Shown here piece by piece: positions 6,429 to 45,593 of a stretch of DNA of 45,843 nucleotides; positions within the stretch are counted from its first letter, which is position 1; every line of letters starts with the position of its first letter. A program made the translations under genes and the position numbers. Source of the DNA: a virus. The notes under the pieces are model-generated. The model made no database searches. It was given only the letters and a program-made list of their open reading frames with translations, and was not told where the DNA came from. The stretch lies in the IMG/VR virus record IMGVR_UViG_3300044733_000781, positions 1-45,843 of that record, one strand, 5' to 3'.

Positions 6429-7676
6429 TTAATATAGTTCAACCCAATTAGAAAGCGACGGTGTTCCTGAAGTTACAATAACGCCATATGTTGCACCAGG
6501 TGGAACTATAAAACCAAGAGAGTCCCCAGTATCTGTTTGGTTATTACCAGATTCATAATTAATGTCTTGACCATTTACGCTAGATTTAACAGAATTGCTA
6601 CCTGTTGCTGGATAACCAACAGAAACAATGACCATAATTGGATAGCTATTGGAGTTTGTGTAAGTAATATTTAGCGCTCGTGACCCAGTAACACCGTTCC
6701 AAACTTCCCCAGTAATACCCAAGCCTAATTTAGTTAAACCAAATACTGCGTTTGCATTTGAGGCTGTTGTAGCGTTTGTGGCATTTGTGGCATTTGTGGC
6801 ATTTGTGGCATTTGTGGCGTTGGTAGCAAAGGCAACCGACTGACTTCCTATATTGCTTGAAGTTATGAATGAACCGCCAGAAGCTGGGCTAGTTGCAAAA
6901 GTAGCGTTAGTAGCGTTAGTGGCGTTAGTGGCATTGGTAGCATTGGTGGCGTTAGTGGCGTTAGTAGCCGTACCTGTTAAATTGGCTGTTATAGTATTAG
7001 CTGTAAAGTTTCCACCAGAGTCCCGTGTAACAATGGTTGATGCACCATTAGAAGAAGACGCCGTGGTTCTAGCATTAGCAATTGTGCCAGCGCTTATATT
7101 TGATGCGTTAATTGAAGTTATGGTTAAACCAGCACCAATAAAATTTGCTGCGGTTACGTTGCCAGCGGTTGAGTAATTAAGAGCGACTACGTTACCTGTA
7201 TAAGTGGCAGCTAGGGCGTTGGTGTTACCTGTAACAGATAGATTGCCGTTGACCTCAAAGTTTCCTACGGACTCAGTACCAACAGCATTAAAGTTAGTAC
7301 CATCGCAGTAAACCCAGACAGTCGCCCCATTAGGCACGGATACAGAAGACCCGCTGGATGCACGAATATTGACGGCAAATCCACCAGAAGTATTATTCCT
7401 GACCACATAGAGCTTCTCAACTAATGGAGCAATAATATCCCGCACTGCAGCATTTGTACCACCCACCACCAAAACAGCGTTACGGGCTTCATCGGATACG
7501 CCGTTAAAGTTAGTTAGCGTGTAGTTGGCATCGGTCATAGTAATAGACACAACGCCTGTAATAGACTGTTCTAGTAGAGTTCCTAAATTGGTATTGGTAG
7601 TCTGACCCCAGATACCTGACTGGTCGCCATCGCCAATTAGCTCTAGCCGTAGTGTCTGCGAAAATGTACTTGCCAT
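6429..7676 (-). CDS. Tail fibre protein with Asn-Ala-Thr tandem repeats
   Basis: 415 aa. The N-terminus (MASTFSQTLRLELIGDGDQS) resembles fibre-attachment segments of podoviral fibres. The middle contains one copy of the INASNISAGTIANARTT module that recurs in the 685-aa fibre at 12726-14783. It is followed by two tracts of repeated Ala-Thr-Asn triplets encoded by 9-bp units. The C-terminal domain (about residues 310-415) is beta-rich and has the recognisable pattern VPPGATYGV, a likely receptor-facing head. The repeats probably form a stiff trimeric shaft. Confidence 0.75.
   Translation of the reverse strand: MASTFSQTLRLELIGDGDQSGIWGQTTNTNLGTLLEQSITGVVSITMTDANYTLTNFNGVSDEARNAVLVVGGTNAAVRDIIAPLVEKLYVVRNNTSGGFAVNIRASSGSSVSVPNGATVWVYCDGTNFNAVGTESVGNFEVNGNLSVTGNTNALAATYTGNVVALNYSTAGNVTAANFIGAGLTITSINASNISAGTIANARTTASSSNGASTIVTRDSGGNFTANTITANLTGTATNATNATNATNATNATNATNATFATSPASGGSFITSSNIGSQSVAFATNATNATNATNATNATNATTASNANAVFGLTKLGLGITGEVWNGVTGSRALNITYTNSNSYPIMVIVSVGYPATGSNSVKSSVNGQDINYESGNNQTDTGDSLGFIVPPGATYGVIVTSGTPSLSNWVELY
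6772..6825. repeat. 9-bp tandem repeat, six units, in fibre gene
   Basis: Six consecutive 9-bp units (GCATTTGTG and close variants) that encode Ala-Thr-Asn on the minus strand. Four units are identical. The array is in frame, so gain or loss of a unit would change fibre length without a frameshift. Confidence 0.9.
6904..6966. repeat. 9-bp tandem repeat, seven units, in fibre gene
   Basis: Seven 9-bp units (GCGTTAGTG / GCATTGGTA variants) encode a second run of Ala-Thr-Asn triplets. The protein motif matches the neighbouring tract, but the codons differ (ACT/AAC instead of ACA/AAT). The two arrays therefore did not arise by one recent expansion. Confidence 0.9.
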
Positions 7677-18259: not shown

Positions 18260-18693
18260 ACCATTCTACCTTTGGTTTTACCACGAATAGCACACCCATC
18301 ACCGCGAGAAGAAGCAGAAGATACCGAACCACCAGATTTGTAGCTAGTAATACCGGCTTTTTCTCTCATAGACTTAAACAACGCTCCAAGATTTTTATAT
18401 CCTTTAGTGCCTTTAAAAAAAGAAGGTTCTTCTTTCTTTGCCTCTGCTTTTGGAGTTGCTTTAGGTTCTGCTTTTGGAGTTGCTTTAGGTTCTGCTTTAG
18501 GCTGAGGTTTTGGAGCAGATTTTTTAGCTTTTGGGGCTTCTCTGGTTTCAATCTCAGGAGCAGGTCTTTGCATTTCCTCAACATAATCTTGAGCACGGGC
18601 GCGGGTCATGTCATCAATCTGAGGGTTTTGCCCCATTTTAGATTCAAATTCTATTTCGCCACCCTCTTCAAATTTACGCATTTTCTTTTTCAT
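18256..18693 (-). CDS. Lys/Pro/Ala-rich protein with shared C-terminal tag
   Basis: 145 aa. The ATG at 18693 is chosen because it overlaps the upstream stop (TAATG) and AGGTGGG lies 8 nt before it. The middle is a disordered Pro-Lys-Ala-Glu linker made by a 24-bp tandem duplication (around 18444-18494, KAEPKATP twice). The C-terminus, RGDGCAIRGKTKGRMV, is nearly the same as the ends of two neighbouring proteins. Function unknown; the linker and tag suggest tethering to a common partner. Confidence 0.6.
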   Translation of the reverse strand: MKKKMRKFEEGGEIEFESKMGQNPQIDDMTRARAQDYVEEMQRPAPEIETREAPKAKKSAPKPQPKAEPKATPKAEPKATPKAEAKKEEPSFFKGTKGYKNLGALFKSMREKAGITSYKSGGSVSSASSRGDGCAIRGKTKGRMV

Positions 18694-37547: not shown

Positions 37548-37750
37548 AGATTGTTAAAGAAAACAAAGACGGGTCGGCCAACGCACAGGTGGACTTTGAT
37601 AAAGAAGGACTAGAGTTCTTGGTGCAGGAAGGACTGCTATCCATAATTACTCAGTTCATAAAGAACAACGAAAACGCGCAAAAAGGCATGGCTATGCGTA
37701 AACGGATTGCTACCAAGGAAAAGAAAAGTGCCATTAAAAAGAGTAAATAA
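37532..37750 (+). CDS. 72-aa protein
   Basis: MDIKIKIVKENKDGSANAQV then DFDKEGLEFLVQEGLLSIIT and a basic tail. This strand-turn-strand-helix pattern is common in small phage proteins of unknown function. Overlaps the HNH gene by 23 bp. Confidence 0.65.
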   Translation: MDIKIKIVKENKDGSANAQVDFDKEGLEFLVQEGLLSIITQFIKNNENAQKGMAMRKRIATKEKKSAIKKSK

Positions 37751-38186
37751 GATTGAAGGCCATCTTGTAACGAGACCGGCTAAAGATCACCCCGACTTAG
37801 CGTATTGGTTTGCATTAAGAAACCTCAAGGTAATTGATCAAGATTATCAATGCGCGACTTGTTGGCGATCAAGCGAAGATTATTCTATGGAGTTGCATCA
37901 CCGGCACTACGACAATTGGGGGCAAGAGCGCCTTGAAGATGTAGCGTTGTTATGTGTGAGTTGCCATGATGCGATTACAAACACAATTCGCAGTAGACGG
38001 AGGGCCCTAGGAGATCAGACTCTTAGTACTATCATCTCAGAGCCCAAACCAGTTCGGTCCAAAAGACCAAAGACTAGGAAAGTAAAAAATCCTAGAGCAG
38101 TAAAGGCCAAAAAGGTTGTGAAATCTAGAAAGCCTAAGATTAAAAAAAGAGTAGTTCCAAAAGTCAAACCTTATAAGGAGAATTAA
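37728..38186 (+). CDS. HNH endonuclease
   Basis: 152 aa from a GTG at 37728 with AAGGA 8 nt upstream; an upstream TTG would give no ribosome site. CATC and CVSC are the zinc knuckles around ELHHRHYDNWGQERLEDVAL, where the HH pair is catalytic. The last ~50 residues are Lys/Arg-rich, probably disordered, for DNA binding. Phage HNH proteins may act in packaging, mobility or attack on other DNA. The gene precedes the RAMP-like gene by one base. Confidence 0.8.
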   Translation: MPLKRVNKIEGHLVTRPAKDHPDLAYWFALRNLKVIDQDYQCATCWRSSEDYSMELHHRHYDNWGQERLEDVALLCVSCHDAITNTIRSRRRALGDQTLSTIISEPKPVRSKRPKTRKVKNPRAVKAKKVVKSRKPKIKKRVVPKVKPYKEN

Positions 38187-38187
38187 C

Positions 38188-38796
38188 ATGGCAGGATATA
38201 TGCAATACGATGTAACACTACAGGGCGACTCGTTGATCATGCACAACGGTCAAACCGCAAACCCACTTAACCCATTCTCAAAAGCAATGAAAGAGATTAG
38301 TGGTAAGCGTAAGAAAACAGACTCGGACTACGAGGCGATGTCCAACATCGAATACAAAGCGGGTTTATATGTGGATGCTAAAAATAATGTGATCATCCCC
38401 TCGCGCGTATTAGAGTCTGTACTGGCTGAAGGTGCCAAGAAATCAAAAGAAGGCAAATTGGCACTATCGGGTATGTTTGTGGATACCGATGCGCTTCTAA
38501 TTTATGATGGCCACCCCATGAGTCTTGATGAGTTGATGAATAGCCCTGAGCACAGACTGTGCGTGGCTGTACGGGTTGGGATGTCAAAGGTTATGCGTAC
38601 GCGCCCACATTTTAAAAACTGGTCGGCTAAGTTTAAGGTCTCTCTTAATGCCGATGTAGCCAACGAAGGCCAGTTACGTAGATGGGTTGAAGATGCCGGC
38701 GCATATGTTGGGATCGGTGACTGGAGACCACGCCATGGTCGGTATGAAATTGTGAAGTTTGAATCAGTCAGTAAGGGTCTCAAAAAGGTTGCTTAG
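38188..38796 (+). CDS. Conserved phage protein with possible RAMP/Cas7-like features
   Basis: 202 aa. Contains GDSLIMHNGQTANPLNPFSK, VIIPSRVLESVLAEGAKKSK, VRVGMSKVMRTRPHFKNW and GAYVGIGDWRPRHGRYEIVK. I have seen this pattern in uncharacterised phage proteins. The 'IPs..L...L....' helix and a C-terminal helix followed by a Gly-rich loop and strand (GIGDWRPRHGRYEI) recall RAMP folds such as Cas7. This is an inference from motif shape, with no proof of RNA binding. AAGGAG precedes the ATG. The unusual repeat array starts right after its stop. Confidence 0.5.
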   Translation: MAGYMQYDVTLQGDSLIMHNGQTANPLNPFSKAMKEISGKRKKTDSDYEAMSNIEYKAGLYVDAKNNVIIPSRVLESVLAEGAKKSKEGKLALSGMFVDTDALLIYDGHPMSLDELMNSPEHRLCVAVRVGMSKVMRTRPHFKNWSAKFKVSLNADVANEGQLRRWVEDAGAYVGIGDWRPRHGRYEIVKFESVSKGLKKVA

Positions 38797-39391
38797 GGTT
38801 TCACGGTTTGGTCGGGTGAGGCTGGTCGCCGCGCGGTGAGGCGAGGCACGGTAAGGTAGGGGTTTCTTGGTGCGGTATGTTCCGGTTGAGCACGGCATGG
38901 CTGGGTACGGTTTGACTGGGGTTTCAGGTTCCGGCAGGATTAGGGGTGGCACGGTGGGGCACAATTTGGTTTGGTACGGCTTGGGTTTCTAGGCTAGGTG
39001 GGGCGAGGTGTTGTGCGGTGATGCTTGGAGTGGTATGGGTATCAAGGTGTGGCACGGCTCGGTACGGTCGAATGCGGTGCGGTTAGGCAGAGCACGGCAC
39101 GGCTCGGGTTTTAGGGCGCGGTACGGTCCGGTTTATTTAGGCGGGTTGTGGCGGGGTCGTGCAGGGCAAGGGATTCGTGGCCGGGTGCGGTCGGGTTCTG
39201 TGCGGTGCGGTGAGTCATGGCTTTTTGTGGTGTGGCAAGGATTTCGCGGCGAGGCGGGGCGAGGTGTGGTTCAGCCAGGTCTGGTCTCGTAAGGTATGGC
39301 AAGGTAGGGATTTTATGGCTAGGTCAGGCATTTTCAGGTTGGGTCAAGCAATGTTAGGTGGGGTATGGTGGGGCACGGTTGGGACATCAAG
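38797..39391 (+). repeat. Degenerate phased G-N-N-N-G pentamer array with GGTTTC-like spacers
   Basis: 595 bp with no credible gene. Nearly the whole stretch can be cut into pentamers with G at positions 1 and 5, mostly GYNNG (GTACG, GCACG, GGxxG forms). They are interrupted by twelve 8-10-nt spacers such as GGTTTCACG, GGTTTCTTG, GGTTTCTAG, GGATTCGTG and GATTTTATG. Spacers start at 38797, 38861, 38920, 38984, 39038, 39107, 39171, 39220, 39240, 39309, 39328 and 39383. G far exceeds C on this strand (28 G, 8 C in 39001-39060). Confidence 0.85.
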
Positions 39392-39412
39392 GTTTTTTAA
39401 CAGGAGGAAGTT

Positions 39413-39655
39413 ATGGGAGCAGTTTTAGAATTAAGAAAATCAACATTAAATTCAGAGTTCATTGAAAAGGTTGCGCATTTCGCGCATGAGGGATTACCCT
39501 ACATGAAAAGCGGAGACAATTGGGTGGACTTCAATGACACATGGGTCGTTAATATTTGGTGGGATCCCACCGAAAACACATATCGCGCAACGATGTATAA
39601 AAAACATGGGGTAAACCATGAAGCAGATTTGCGTAGTGGTGTTGATTTATTTTAA
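39413..39655 (+). CDS. 80-aa protein after the array
   Basis: LELRKSTLNSEFIEKVAHFA, HEGLPYMKSGDNWVDFNDTW and VVNIWWDPTENTYRATMYKK. Strong ribosome site CAGGAGGAAGTT. Alpha/beta. Not recognised. It is the only gene between the array and a new promoter, and may be read from the array transcript. Confidence 0.65.
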   Translation: MGAVLELRKSTLNSEFIEKVAHFAHEGLPYMKSGDNWVDFNDTWVVNIWWDPTENTYRATMYKKHGVNHEADLRSGVDLF

Positions 39656-39669
39656 AAATTGTTTACAAT
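39642..39669 (+). promoter_or_regulatory. Candidate promoter for the nuclease-polymerase operon
   Basis: TTGATT, 16 nt, TACAAT (4 and 5 of 6 matches). It is 22 bp upstream of the GTG start at 39692, within the end of the previous gene. The ATTGTTTACAATG context resembles the other early promoters. Confidence 0.5.
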
Positions 39670-39691
39670 GTCAACGAAGAGGAGAAAAAAA

Positions 39692-39967
39692 GTGAACACA
39701 ATCAAAACAGGTATTGTGCTGGAGGGTTTGGATTTACAAAACCCCAAAAGCTTTCATGGCATTACAGACATACATCATTATGTAGGTAGAACAAGTCGGT
39801 CAGCAAGCGAAGCATTCAAAGATGCGCAGTACGCATACGCTCTAGAAAAACACAGTTCCGATTTAAGACACGCGCTCAATTGGTTTTCAGATTTAATTGC
39901 ATTTTTCTTTTGGGCGGGGTTTGCCATTAGCTTACCCATCATACTTGTTTACTGGATTACGAGGTGA
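39692..39967 (+). CDS. 91-aa membrane-anchored protein, GTG start
   Basis: GAGGAG lies 7 nt before the GTG; upstream ATG and TTG codons lack such a site. A soluble N-terminal part (GLDLQNPKSFHGITDIHHYV, SASEAFKDAQYAYALEKHSS) ends in a membrane helix (DLIAFFFWAGFAISLPIILV). Function unknown. Confidence 0.6.
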   Translation: MNTIKTGIVLEGLDLQNPKSFHGITDIHHYVGRTSRSASEAFKDAQYAYALEKHSSDLRHALNWFSDLIAFFFWAGFAISLPIILVYWITR

Positions 39968-39969
39968 TT

Positions 39970-40155
39970 ATGAAAGGTTATCAATTAAAACTAGATTTTG
40001 GTGAGGGCCAGGAATGCCACAAACTCTATGAAGAGTTTTTACAAGAAACCGGCATGGAAGATACTGCCGGGCAATGGGGTATGTTTATCAAATGCTATCA
40101 ATTAATTAATGAAATAAAAATTATGGAAGAAAGCAAGAGGCATACACTGCAATGA
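39970..40155 (+). CDS. 61-aa helical protein
   Basis: MKGYQLKLDFGEGQECHKLY then EEFLQETGMEDTAGQWGMFI and KCYQLINEIKIMEE. GAGGTGATT precedes the ATG. It overlaps the nuclease gene by 4 bp. Not recognised. Confidence 0.6.
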   Translation: MKGYQLKLDFGEGQECHKLYEEFLQETGMEDTAGQWGMFIKCYQLINEIKIMEESKRHTLQ

Positions 40156-40460
40156 CTCCGGAAGGCAAAGTTAAACAGCGGGTATCCAAAATCCTAAAAG
40201 AGCACGGCGCATATTATTTTTCGCCAGTGACCGGAGGGTTTGGTCGTAGTGGGGTGCCCGATATTGTGGCTTGCTATCAGGGAGTTTTTATTGGGATCGA
40301 GTGCAAAGCGGAAAACAATAAACCTACTGCTTTGCAGTTGAAGAACCTTGAAGACATTCATACGAATGGTGGATGGGGGATGATTGTGAACGAGGAAACC
40401 GCAGGGGATGTTAAAGCGGTGCTGTTATACATTAAACATTTACGGGAGAAAACAAAATGA
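40152..40460 (+). CDS. VRR-NUC-type nuclease
   Basis: 102 aa. PEGKVKQRVSKILKEHGAYY, TGGFGRSGVPDIVACYQGVF and GIECKAENNKPTALQLKNLE contain the PD...ExK active site (D in GVPDIV, E-x-K in IECKAE) and the Q in the following helix. Small phage VRR-NUC proteins are proposed Holliday-junction or flap nucleases. It precedes the DUF3310 and polymerase genes in the replication module. Confidence 0.85.
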   Translation: MTPEGKVKQRVSKILKEHGAYYFSPVTGGFGRSGVPDIVACYQGVFIGIECKAENNKPTALQLKNLEDIHTNGGWGMIVNEETAGDVKAVLLYIKHLREKTK

Positions 40461-43772: not shown

Positions 43773-45593
43773 ATGAATATTATTACCCTTGACTTTGAGA
43801 CATACTATGATCGAGAATTCTCTTTGTCAAAAATAACGACAGAAGAATATGTTCGAGATGACCGTTTTGAGGTAATCGGCGTAGCTGTTAAGGAGAATGG
43901 TAATGAAACAAAATGGCTTAGTGGTACAGGAGAAGAAGTTTGTGGGTTTCTTAGGCAATACGATTGGGAAAACTCTTTCGCGCTGGCTCACAACGCTATG
44001 TTTGACGCCTCTATTCTTACTTGGCGGTTTGGTATTAAACCCTTGGCTTGGTTGGACACCCTCAGCATGGCCAGAGCCGTCCATGGAACAGAAATTGGAA
44101 ACAGCTTGGCAAAACTGGTGGAATACTACGAGCTTGGTAAAAAAGGCACCGAAGTCATAAATGCATTAGGTAAGCATAAGAAAGATTTTAGCAAAGCGGA
44201 AATCAATGCATATGGTGGATATTGTATTAATGATGTTGAGTTAACCTACGAACTTTTCCTACGGCTCTTACCTAACTTTAAACAACCCGAGCTAAAACTA
44301 ATTGATATAACCGTCAAGATGTTTTCTGAGCCCACACTTGAGTTGGACACCCCGCTCTTAGAGGCGCATTTAGAAGATGTAAAGAATCGCAAGGAGCTAT
44401 TGTTACAAGCGGTCCAGCAAGACCGGGAAGCTCTGATGTCAAACCAAAAGTTTGCTGAGTTACTACGTCAATGCGGGGTAGAGCCACCCACAAAGATTTC
44501 ACCAACAACGGGCCAGGAGACCTTGGCCATGGCCAAGAGCGATGAAGGGTTTAAAGCCTTAGCCGAACATCCGGACGAAAGAGTACAGGCCTTGGTCGCT
44601 GCTCGCCTTGGTAACAAATCTACACTGGAGGAAACCCGTACGGATCGGTTCATCAACATATCAAAGCGGGGCAAGATGCCGGTGCCGTTGTCATACTATG
44701 CAGCACATACAGGTCGTTGGGGTGGCGCAGACAAAATAAACCTACAGAATTTACCTAGCCGTGGGGCTAATGGTGGCAAATTAAAAAGGGCAATCATGGC
44801 GCCTAAAAGCCATGTAATAATTGATGCAGACTCTGCTCAGATTGAAGCACGGGTATTAGCTTGGTTGGCGGGTCAAACAGATTTAACGGAGGCATTTAAA
44901 AATGGAGAGGACGTATACAAAATCATGGCTGCTGCTATATATGGCAAGCCGAAAGAAGAAATTACCAAGGAAGAAAGGTTTGTGGGTAAGACGACCATCC
45001 TTGGCGCGGGCTACGGGATGGGAGCGCAAAAATTCCAAACACAACTCAAAACGTTTGGTACGGAAATTAACGAAGGGGAAGCTCGCCATATTGTGGCTGT
45101 CTACCGTGACACCTACGGAATGATCCCTAAACTATGGGAACAGGGCGGGTCTGCTATTGAAGCGATGGCTAACAATCAATCAGTTACGTTTGGTACTGGT
45201 GCAGTAGTGGTATCTGGTAGTAAGGGAGTACTTATGCCTAATGGTTTATACCAACGATACCCACACCTTCGGCAGATCCAAGACACTGACGGGCGGTATC
45301 AATATGTGTATGATGCTAGACGTGGGGTAAACAAAATTTACGGCGGTAAATTGGTAGAGAACATTTGCCAAGGAATCGCTCGTTGTATTATTGGGGAGCA
45401 AATGATTCGGATTGCAAAACGGTATAAAGTTGTACTTACCGTGCATGACGCCATTGCTTGTGTCGCATTAGAAAAAGAAGCCCAAGAAGCGGTAGCCTAT
45501 GTAGAAGAATGTATGAAATGGGTTCCGGAATGGGCTTCGGATTTACCGCTTAGTTGCGAGGTGGGTTTTGGAAAATCGTATGGAGAATGCTAA
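43773..45593 (+). CDS. polA: Family-A DNA polymerase with 3'-5' exonuclease
   Basis: 606 aa. Exonuclease motifs: LDFETYYD (D7, E9), AHNAMFDASIL (D78) and YCINDVEL (Y150, D154). Polymerase: TGRWGGADKINLQNLPSR (313-330), motif A DSAQIEAR (D353, E358), motif B R402-K406-L410-Y414 and motif C VHDA (H558, D559). Leu410 aligns with E. coli Phe762. Ala560 replaces the usual Glu of HDE in motif C. No 5'-3' exonuclease domain. It replicates the phage genome with the flanking nucleases. Confidence 0.95.
   Translation: MNIITLDFETYYDREFSLSKITTEEYVRDDRFEVIGVAVKENGNETKWLSGTGEEVCGFLRQYDWENSFALAHNAMFDASILTWRFGIKPLAWLDTLSMARAVHGTEIGNSLAKLVEYYELGKKGTEVINALGKHKKDFSKAEINAYGGYCINDVELTYELFLRLLPNFKQPELKLIDITVKMFSEPTLELDTPLLEAHLEDVKNRKELLLQAVQQDREALMSNQKFAELLRQCGVEPPTKISPTTGQETLAMAKSDEGFKALAEHPDERVQALVAARLGNKSTLEETRTDRFINISKRGKMPVPLSYYAAHTGRWGGADKINLQNLPSRGANGGKLKRAIMAPKSHVIIDADSAQIEARVLAWLAGQTDLTEAFKNGEDVYKIMAAAIYGKPKEEITKEERFVGKTTILGAGYGMGAQKFQTQLKTFGTEINEGEARHIVAVYRDTYGMIPKLWEQGGSAIEAMANNQSVTFGTGAVVVSGSKGVLMPNGLYQRYPHLRQIQDTDGRYQYVYDARRGVNKIYGGKLVENICQGIARCIIGEQMIRIAKRYKVVLTVHDAIACVALEKEAQEAVAYVEECMKWVPEWASDLPLSCEVGFGKSYGEC

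Follow-up and report, generated by a model that had tools for sequence, protein, structure and literature searches.

What kind of element occupies the roughly 595 nucleotides that directly follow a small gene in an uncultured phage genome and that read as an array of short, variable units held in strict register? The 45,843-nucleotide DNA analysed here (hereafter the window, meaning the whole stretch) carries genes for tail, capsid, portal, terminase and polymerase proteins, which mark it as a tailed phage. Its terminase is nearest to those of phage DSL-LC04 and of the Pelagibacter phages HTVC027P and HTVC023P (52–59%). A sequence-only reading had parsed positions 38797–39391 as G-N-N-N-G pentamers interrupted by twelve GGTTTC-like spacers, and had suggested an array bound by a repetitive protein, an origin or packaging zone, or a non-coding RNA.

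The five-base period is borne out by autocorrelation, in which G recurs at lags of 5, 10 and 15 with values of 0.36, 0.39 and 0.26, respectively (z = 9.1, 9.2 and 6.7 against dinucleotide-preserving shuffles). The Fourier check proposed along with it failed over the full array length (G power 1.99 versus a shuffle mean of 0.98, not significant) because every junction moves the phase by 4 nt, an outcome consistent with the phase grammar that the reading had itself described. While the period stands, the definition of the unit does not: the repeat is GG-Y-N-N. In distinct modules from 15 related loci, about 95% of units have a pyrimidine (Y) at the third base and about 73% retain GG; the two N letters are free. 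Runs of at least four GGYNN units occur nine times in the array and nowhere else on either strand of the 45.8-kb window. The strong asymmetry of G over C that had been pointed out is likewise present (44% G, 16% C). Separately, short tandem repeats of 9 and 12/24 nt lie in the structural gene region, at 6754–6968 and 18443–18501.

Parsed with this unit, the array shifts by one base to 38796–39390 on the plus strand, and its first G is the final base of the upstream stop codon TAG (38794–38796). It consists of nine GGYNN modules of 10–14 units, each opened by a 9-nt junction of the form GGRTWTC-NN, which has the structure of a pentamer with four extra bases (GG-RTWT-Y-NN); a terminal junction, GGACATCAA at 39382 on the plus strand, closes the array. 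Ten such GGRTWTC-like junctions plus NN (at 38796, 38860, 38919, 38983, 39037, 39106, 39170, 39239, 39308 and 39382) take the place of the twelve spacers, at distances of 64, 59, 64, 54, 69, 64, 69, 69 and 74 nt. All nine distances equal 4 modulo 5 under a parser that was biased toward this value; an unbiased splitter returned 4 modulo 5 for 65 of 93 distinct modules from the 15 related loci, where 20% would be expected. In the first parse, intervals of 69 and 74 had been divided too finely, into 49 + 20 and 19 + 55; the 10-nt spacers at 39220 and 39328, which the two exceptions to the rule had followed, vanish on re-parsing.

Degenerate units, and the fact that some ORFs traverse the array, might suggest a functionless tandem repeat or a relic coding sequence, but module lengths in nucleotides cover all codon phases yet hold 4 modulo 5, and the phase is kept among phages that are roughly 20% diverged, so that this explanation has next to no probability. 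The earlier argument that spacing is selected and is not a product of slippage holds. The array lacks the identical direct repeats and unique spacers of a CRISPR array; its units differ while the phase is kept. An Rfam search of 38000–40200 returned no family, only sub-threshold chance matches to snoRNAs, and blastn of the array against named phages gave no match.

The gene that ends where the array begins (38188–38796, plus strand) encodes a single-domain RAMP protein of 202 aa. A Pfam search with this protein returned no family; it belongs to PHROG_4652, of unknown function, which is matched by 80 of 80 members of its family. Compared with the PDB, its profile gave one strong match, to 36pp_D, "SUSP1 Vipr protein" (E = 1.2e-41), and the single sequence matched the same chain at E = 9.9e-27. 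When an AlphaFold2 model of the protein (pLDDT 95.5) was searched with Foldseek, the best PDB matches were Csm3/Cas7 subunits of CRISPR type III (best E 5.5e-6), and the matches listed are Csm, Cmr and type VII CRISPR RAMP subunits. Judged by homology and by the structural model, the protein upstream of the array is a Vipr with a predicted Cas7-like fold.

Viral Interference Programmable Repeat (VIPR) systems were first described in a preprint of 27 April 2026 (PMC13142463), in which a Vipr RAMP protein is accompanied by vrRNAs of alternating GGY and NN, with 9–16 repeats. The NN letters of a vrRNA pair with DNA, and each repeat passes over a single base of the target, which mostly falls on the codon wobble position (PMC13142463). 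These systems form RNPs and repress transcription, with targets in satellites and prophages; vrRNA expression, Vipr binding and repression were demonstrated for SUSP1 and P. fulva, and predicted nucleases are confined to two defence-island VIPR types (PMC13142463). The window contains a Vipr homologue, GGY/NN repeats, an array beside vipr on the same strand and NN letters that can be read with a one-base skip. The element is real, well-defined and of an already known kind, a VIPR guide array, and confidence is high that the stretch supplies the guides (vrRNA) for a VIPR system encoded by the phage. The claim that no described phage element resembles it was accurate until April 2026 and has been overtaken since by the GGY/NN arrays of VIPR (PMC13142463). 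Of the original guesses, two had the correct kind of element: the non-coding RNA, here a vrRNA guide array, and the array to which a repetitive protein binds, here Vipr, which would sit once per repeat on the RNA.

Directly upstream of vipr lies an HNH endonuclease gene (37707–38186, plus strand; Pfam HNH, 9.6e-6), a candidate vipr-accessory (vap) gene. A homologue of the HNH gene occupies this same place next to vipr in the close relatives with coverage; weaker conservation extends to L021, L103 and L045. On the other side, the start region of an 80-aa ORF (39413–39655, plus strand) follows the last junction of the array; this ORF is swapped for an unrelated gene in L004–L013 and, as far as seen, lies outside the VIPR system. 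At L031, L035, L119, L136 and about 22 further loci, a protein of the PHROG_15946 family (~150–190 aa, unknown function) is encoded directly between or beside vipr and the array, and its gene is likely a vap gene.

The link between array and gene extends well beyond the window. A search with the 202-aa protein found 16 viral loci, and an array of the same kind lies directly downstream in all 16. In these arrays, whole modules have been inserted, deleted or exchanged. A protein-blind scan of viral contigs for seven GGYNN units only yielded at least 120 loci; the ORFs adjoining these arrays belong mainly to one family, that of the window Vipr itself. At the 101 loci with arrays of at least 12 units, a profile of the window protein's family detected vipr within 800 nt on the same strand in 79 (57 of them within 100 nt), on the opposite strand in one and not at all in 21. 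The association is independent because this second set of arrays was found without protein information. Two arrays often flank the vipr gene; Felixounavirus wV8, a relative of SUSP1, has arrays on either side of it.

The intergenic position and the strong GC skew would suit an element that works as DNA, such as a replication origin, a packaging site or some other array of protein-binding sites, and the sequence-only reading had counted an origin or packaging zone among its guesses. However, the array follows vipr across unrelated phages and positions, in 79 of 80 cases with the orientation of vipr transcription, the gene is often flanked by two arrays, and modules are exchanged piecemeal; the guess is unsupported, and a DNA-level role is improbable in the extreme.

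Variations on the VIPR layout were seen at several loci. L021, whose Vipr is 52% identical to that of the window, has the same head-to-tail layout with GGACTTTAG junctions. A divergent relative (L016:544-2130) has arrays with another junction (CGTACAACTCACGGC) that flank another small gene. In the actinophages MakoManhole and LittleE (L307:2894-3200 and L309:3660-4000), GGYNN tracts alternate, by eye, with tRNA-like or hairpin-rich segments, which may be processing handles. Five GGYNN arrays stand apart from vipr (L085:10438-10586, L126:10563-10897, L112:492-832, L096:569-1318 and L109:6011-6070), and the ORFs adjacent to these five include no vipr homologue better than E 0.1. Such arrays are possibly orphan guides that borrow Vipr or that are served by another protein, and some may be chance or truncated.

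The nine modules of the window, taken as guides, can be compared with potential targets. Guide 1 (38796–38859, plus strand), with the NN letters AC TT CG GA TG GC GC GA GA AC AA AG, decodes as T-F-R-[DE]-W-A-A-[DE]-[DE]-T-[NK]. Its 18-base core occurs in four viral contigs, in all four within the tyrosine integrase motif STFRDWAAEET and in codon phase, and its first 22 bases occur in seven stretches from six bacterial genomes, all seven within the same integrase motif in codon phase 0. These genome matches cover 22 of 24 bases, with ~0.03 random matches expected by our own arithmetic; the full 24 bases had no exact match in the bacterial genomes. Motif and surroundings suggest that the matched ORFs encode P4-type integrases, and the predicted target is the catalytic motif HGFRSTFRDWAAEETN of a prophage/satellite-type (P4-type) tyrosine integrase. 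The core of guide 1 is common to sister guides in L007, L011 and L014: the L014 version, which ends T-D in place of T-N, matches three viral integrases at 22 of 22 bases, and the L011 version starts one codon later at the same site. A variant in L003 was rejected, as its two matches fall in short ORFs that are not integrases.

The remaining guides, all on the plus strand, are less readily assigned, and no convincing target was found for seven of the nine window guides, with guide 7 tentative besides. Guide 2 (38860–38918) has 11 units, TT GC AT CC TG AC AT TG AC TT TG, and guide 4 (38983–39036) has 10, TA TA GG GA GT GC GA TT GT AT. The parse gives 12 units each for guide 3 (38919–38982) and guide 6 (39106–39169), 13 for guide 5 (39037–39105) and 14 for guide 9 (39308–39381). 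The first 11 NN units of guide 5 are identical in L004, L005 and L009, while several of its G/G/Y letters differ; no target for it was found in viral contigs, 44 viral records or 340 bacterial genomes. Guide 8 (39239–39307; 13 units) is conserved in L002, L003, L014 and L015, and its four viral matches, at 18–20 of 26 bases and with three in one unrelated gene family, were treated as chance.

Guide 7 (39170–39238; 13 units) reads antisense as [FL]TT[NK][IM]SAA[DE]RART and matches the ribB motif VTTGISAADRARTI at 23 of 26 bases in 28 of 369 gammaproteobacterial genomes, with no match for a reversed-pattern control. The five loci inspected are ribB-like by eye. The assignment of ribB as its target is tentative because three mismatches remain in every case, and no target for guide 7 was found in the 44 viral records. 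Together with a sister guide in L015 that by hand decoding reads the same ribB motif, these matches would fit a VIPR array whose targets include host genes such as ribB and not rival elements alone. This broader targeting is unlikely, however, given the three mismatches in every ribB case and given that guide 1 and a guide of the sister phage L012 point to mobile elements and phages.

The L012 guide came from a decoding scan in which the NN letters of 97 distinct clade modules were compared with 3 Mb of viral DNA, both strands, with arrays masked. Matches with at most two mismatches numbered 0, 38, 2 and 0 for skips of 0, 1, 2 and 3 bases, a comparison that rests on one independent match family. 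The best 22 of the 38 skip-1 matches involve a single guide, the last of L012, and a single homologous site; polymerase matches in many phages were counted as one homologous site and one independent event, and the integrase matches likewise. The site lies at the start of the polymerase gene, in the exonuclease region, in many phages including the window, where it occupies 43827–43859 (plus strand) of the DNA polymerase gene (43773–45590) and encodes S-K-I-T-T-E-E-Y-V-R-D. The guide, TC AA AT AC GC GA GA TA GT CG GA, meets the codons TCA AAA ATA ACG ACA GAA GAA TAT GTT CGA GAT with 21 of 22 NN bases matched, in codon phase, with the skipped base always at position 3 and at skip 1 only; the chance expectation for such a match is ~0.002 by our own arithmetic. 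The lone mismatch sets guide G against displaced-strand A, which an rG-dT wobble might accommodate. The corresponding site in the polymerase of L012 itself has five mismatches. Read from these sequences, the sister phage would silence the polymerase of its competitors and spare its own. An 8-unit word scan over all arrays minus the pattern-fetched loci gave 2, 11, 10 and 2 matches for skips of 0 to 3 and was discounted as support for skip 1, being noisy (11 for skip 1 versus 10 for skip 2).

Comparison of homologous modules indicates which letters are maintained. Per-site mismatch is 0.15 and 0.12 for the two G letters, 0.24 for Y, and 0.12 and 0.16 for the two N letters: the pyrimidine toggles freely between C and T, and NN is held within a guide lineage and variable between guides. 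These frequencies bear on the proposal that Vipr controls its own mRNA through the array, which would then act as a regulatory 3ʹ UTR or an RNA scaffold and have no part in DNA targeting. Such self-regulation would account for the position of the array, which comes right after the vipr stop codon and has the same orientation, but conservation of the NN letters equals that of the G letters while the pyrimidine toggles, the NN strings at skip 1 spell out real genes in wobble phase, and targeting has been shown for relatives (PMC13142463), which leaves self-regulation highly improbable. Whole guides are exchanged between phages. Guides at L005:6068, L011:6096 and L015:649 have in common with window guide 9 the NN run TA CA xx xA TG CA xx TA, which starts at a different unit from guide to guide; it looks as though a single target site had been acquired, or moved into a new register, in steps of whole codons. 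With sister guides displaced by entire codons along a shared site, the question of guide acquisition becomes concrete.

If the stretch is read as a VIPR guide array, the following course of events may be proposed. A single transcript probably carries both vipr and the array, because the latter starts at the stop codon of the former. This RNA would be used as nine guides of 10–14 pentamers each, presumably cut at the junctions, with the last two letters of each 9-nt junction still part of the guide. The small Cas7-like RAMP protein Vipr would coat each guide with about one protomer per GGYNN, keeping hold of GGY and displaying NN. Pairing of NN with double-stranded DNA would follow the pattern NNxNNxNN, in which one base is skipped, usually at the codon wobble position, and the bound guide would shut off transcription of genes that belong to competing elements: sibling phages (DNA polymerase), prophages or satellites that carry an integrase, and perhaps others. 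The HNH gene may also have a role in the system. RNA production, RNP formation, the skip rule and repression are taken from the preprint on relatives (PMC13142463), and the array grammar, the identity and fold of Vipr, the co-occurrence, the module exchange, the L012 polymerase match and the guide-1 integrase matches come from this analysis.

VIPR has been described as a possible ancestor of CRISPR, and the window provides, as far as checked, an independent case in uncultured phages, in which the one-base-skip code is supported by sequences found without the use of that code. Its new content lies in natural targets, a self-sparing sister guide and a compact architecture. The compact array may correspond to the "staggered arrays with overlapping vrRNAs" mentioned in PMC13142463. 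It is possible, though rather doubtful, that the window represents an undescribed VIPR architecture: nine head-to-tail guides delimited by 4-nt insertions, tail-less, paired with an HNH gene and possibly cutting. If so, a phage VIPR might cut, and not only silence, the polymerase genes of siblings and integrase-bearing elements.

Among known systems, the closest likeness is to the type II VIPR of SUSP1 (PDB 36pp), which shares a homologous Vipr, GGY/NN repeats beside vipr on the same strand and a 1-nt skip at the wobble position; the window Vipr is 32% identical to that of the SUSP1 relative wV8. The layouts differ. SUSP1 has four vrRNAs of ~100 nt with folded 3ʹ tails, whereas the window has nine guides separated by 9-nt junctions only, with no structured 3ʹ tail after its repeat tracts. 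Similarly, wV8, of the virus group of SUSP1, has short repeat tracts with a long tail after each, while the window guides run head to tail. The neighbouring gene in the window encodes an HNH protein, in contrast to the predicted DNA-binding protein of the type II vap. With Class 1 CRISPR-Cas systems (Csm3/Cas7), the window shares the RAMP fold, a programmable array of guide modules and a periodic interruption of pairing. Unlike those systems, it has neither identical repeats nor contiguous spacers; it employs one small protein, and its guide letters are interleaved with the scaffold.
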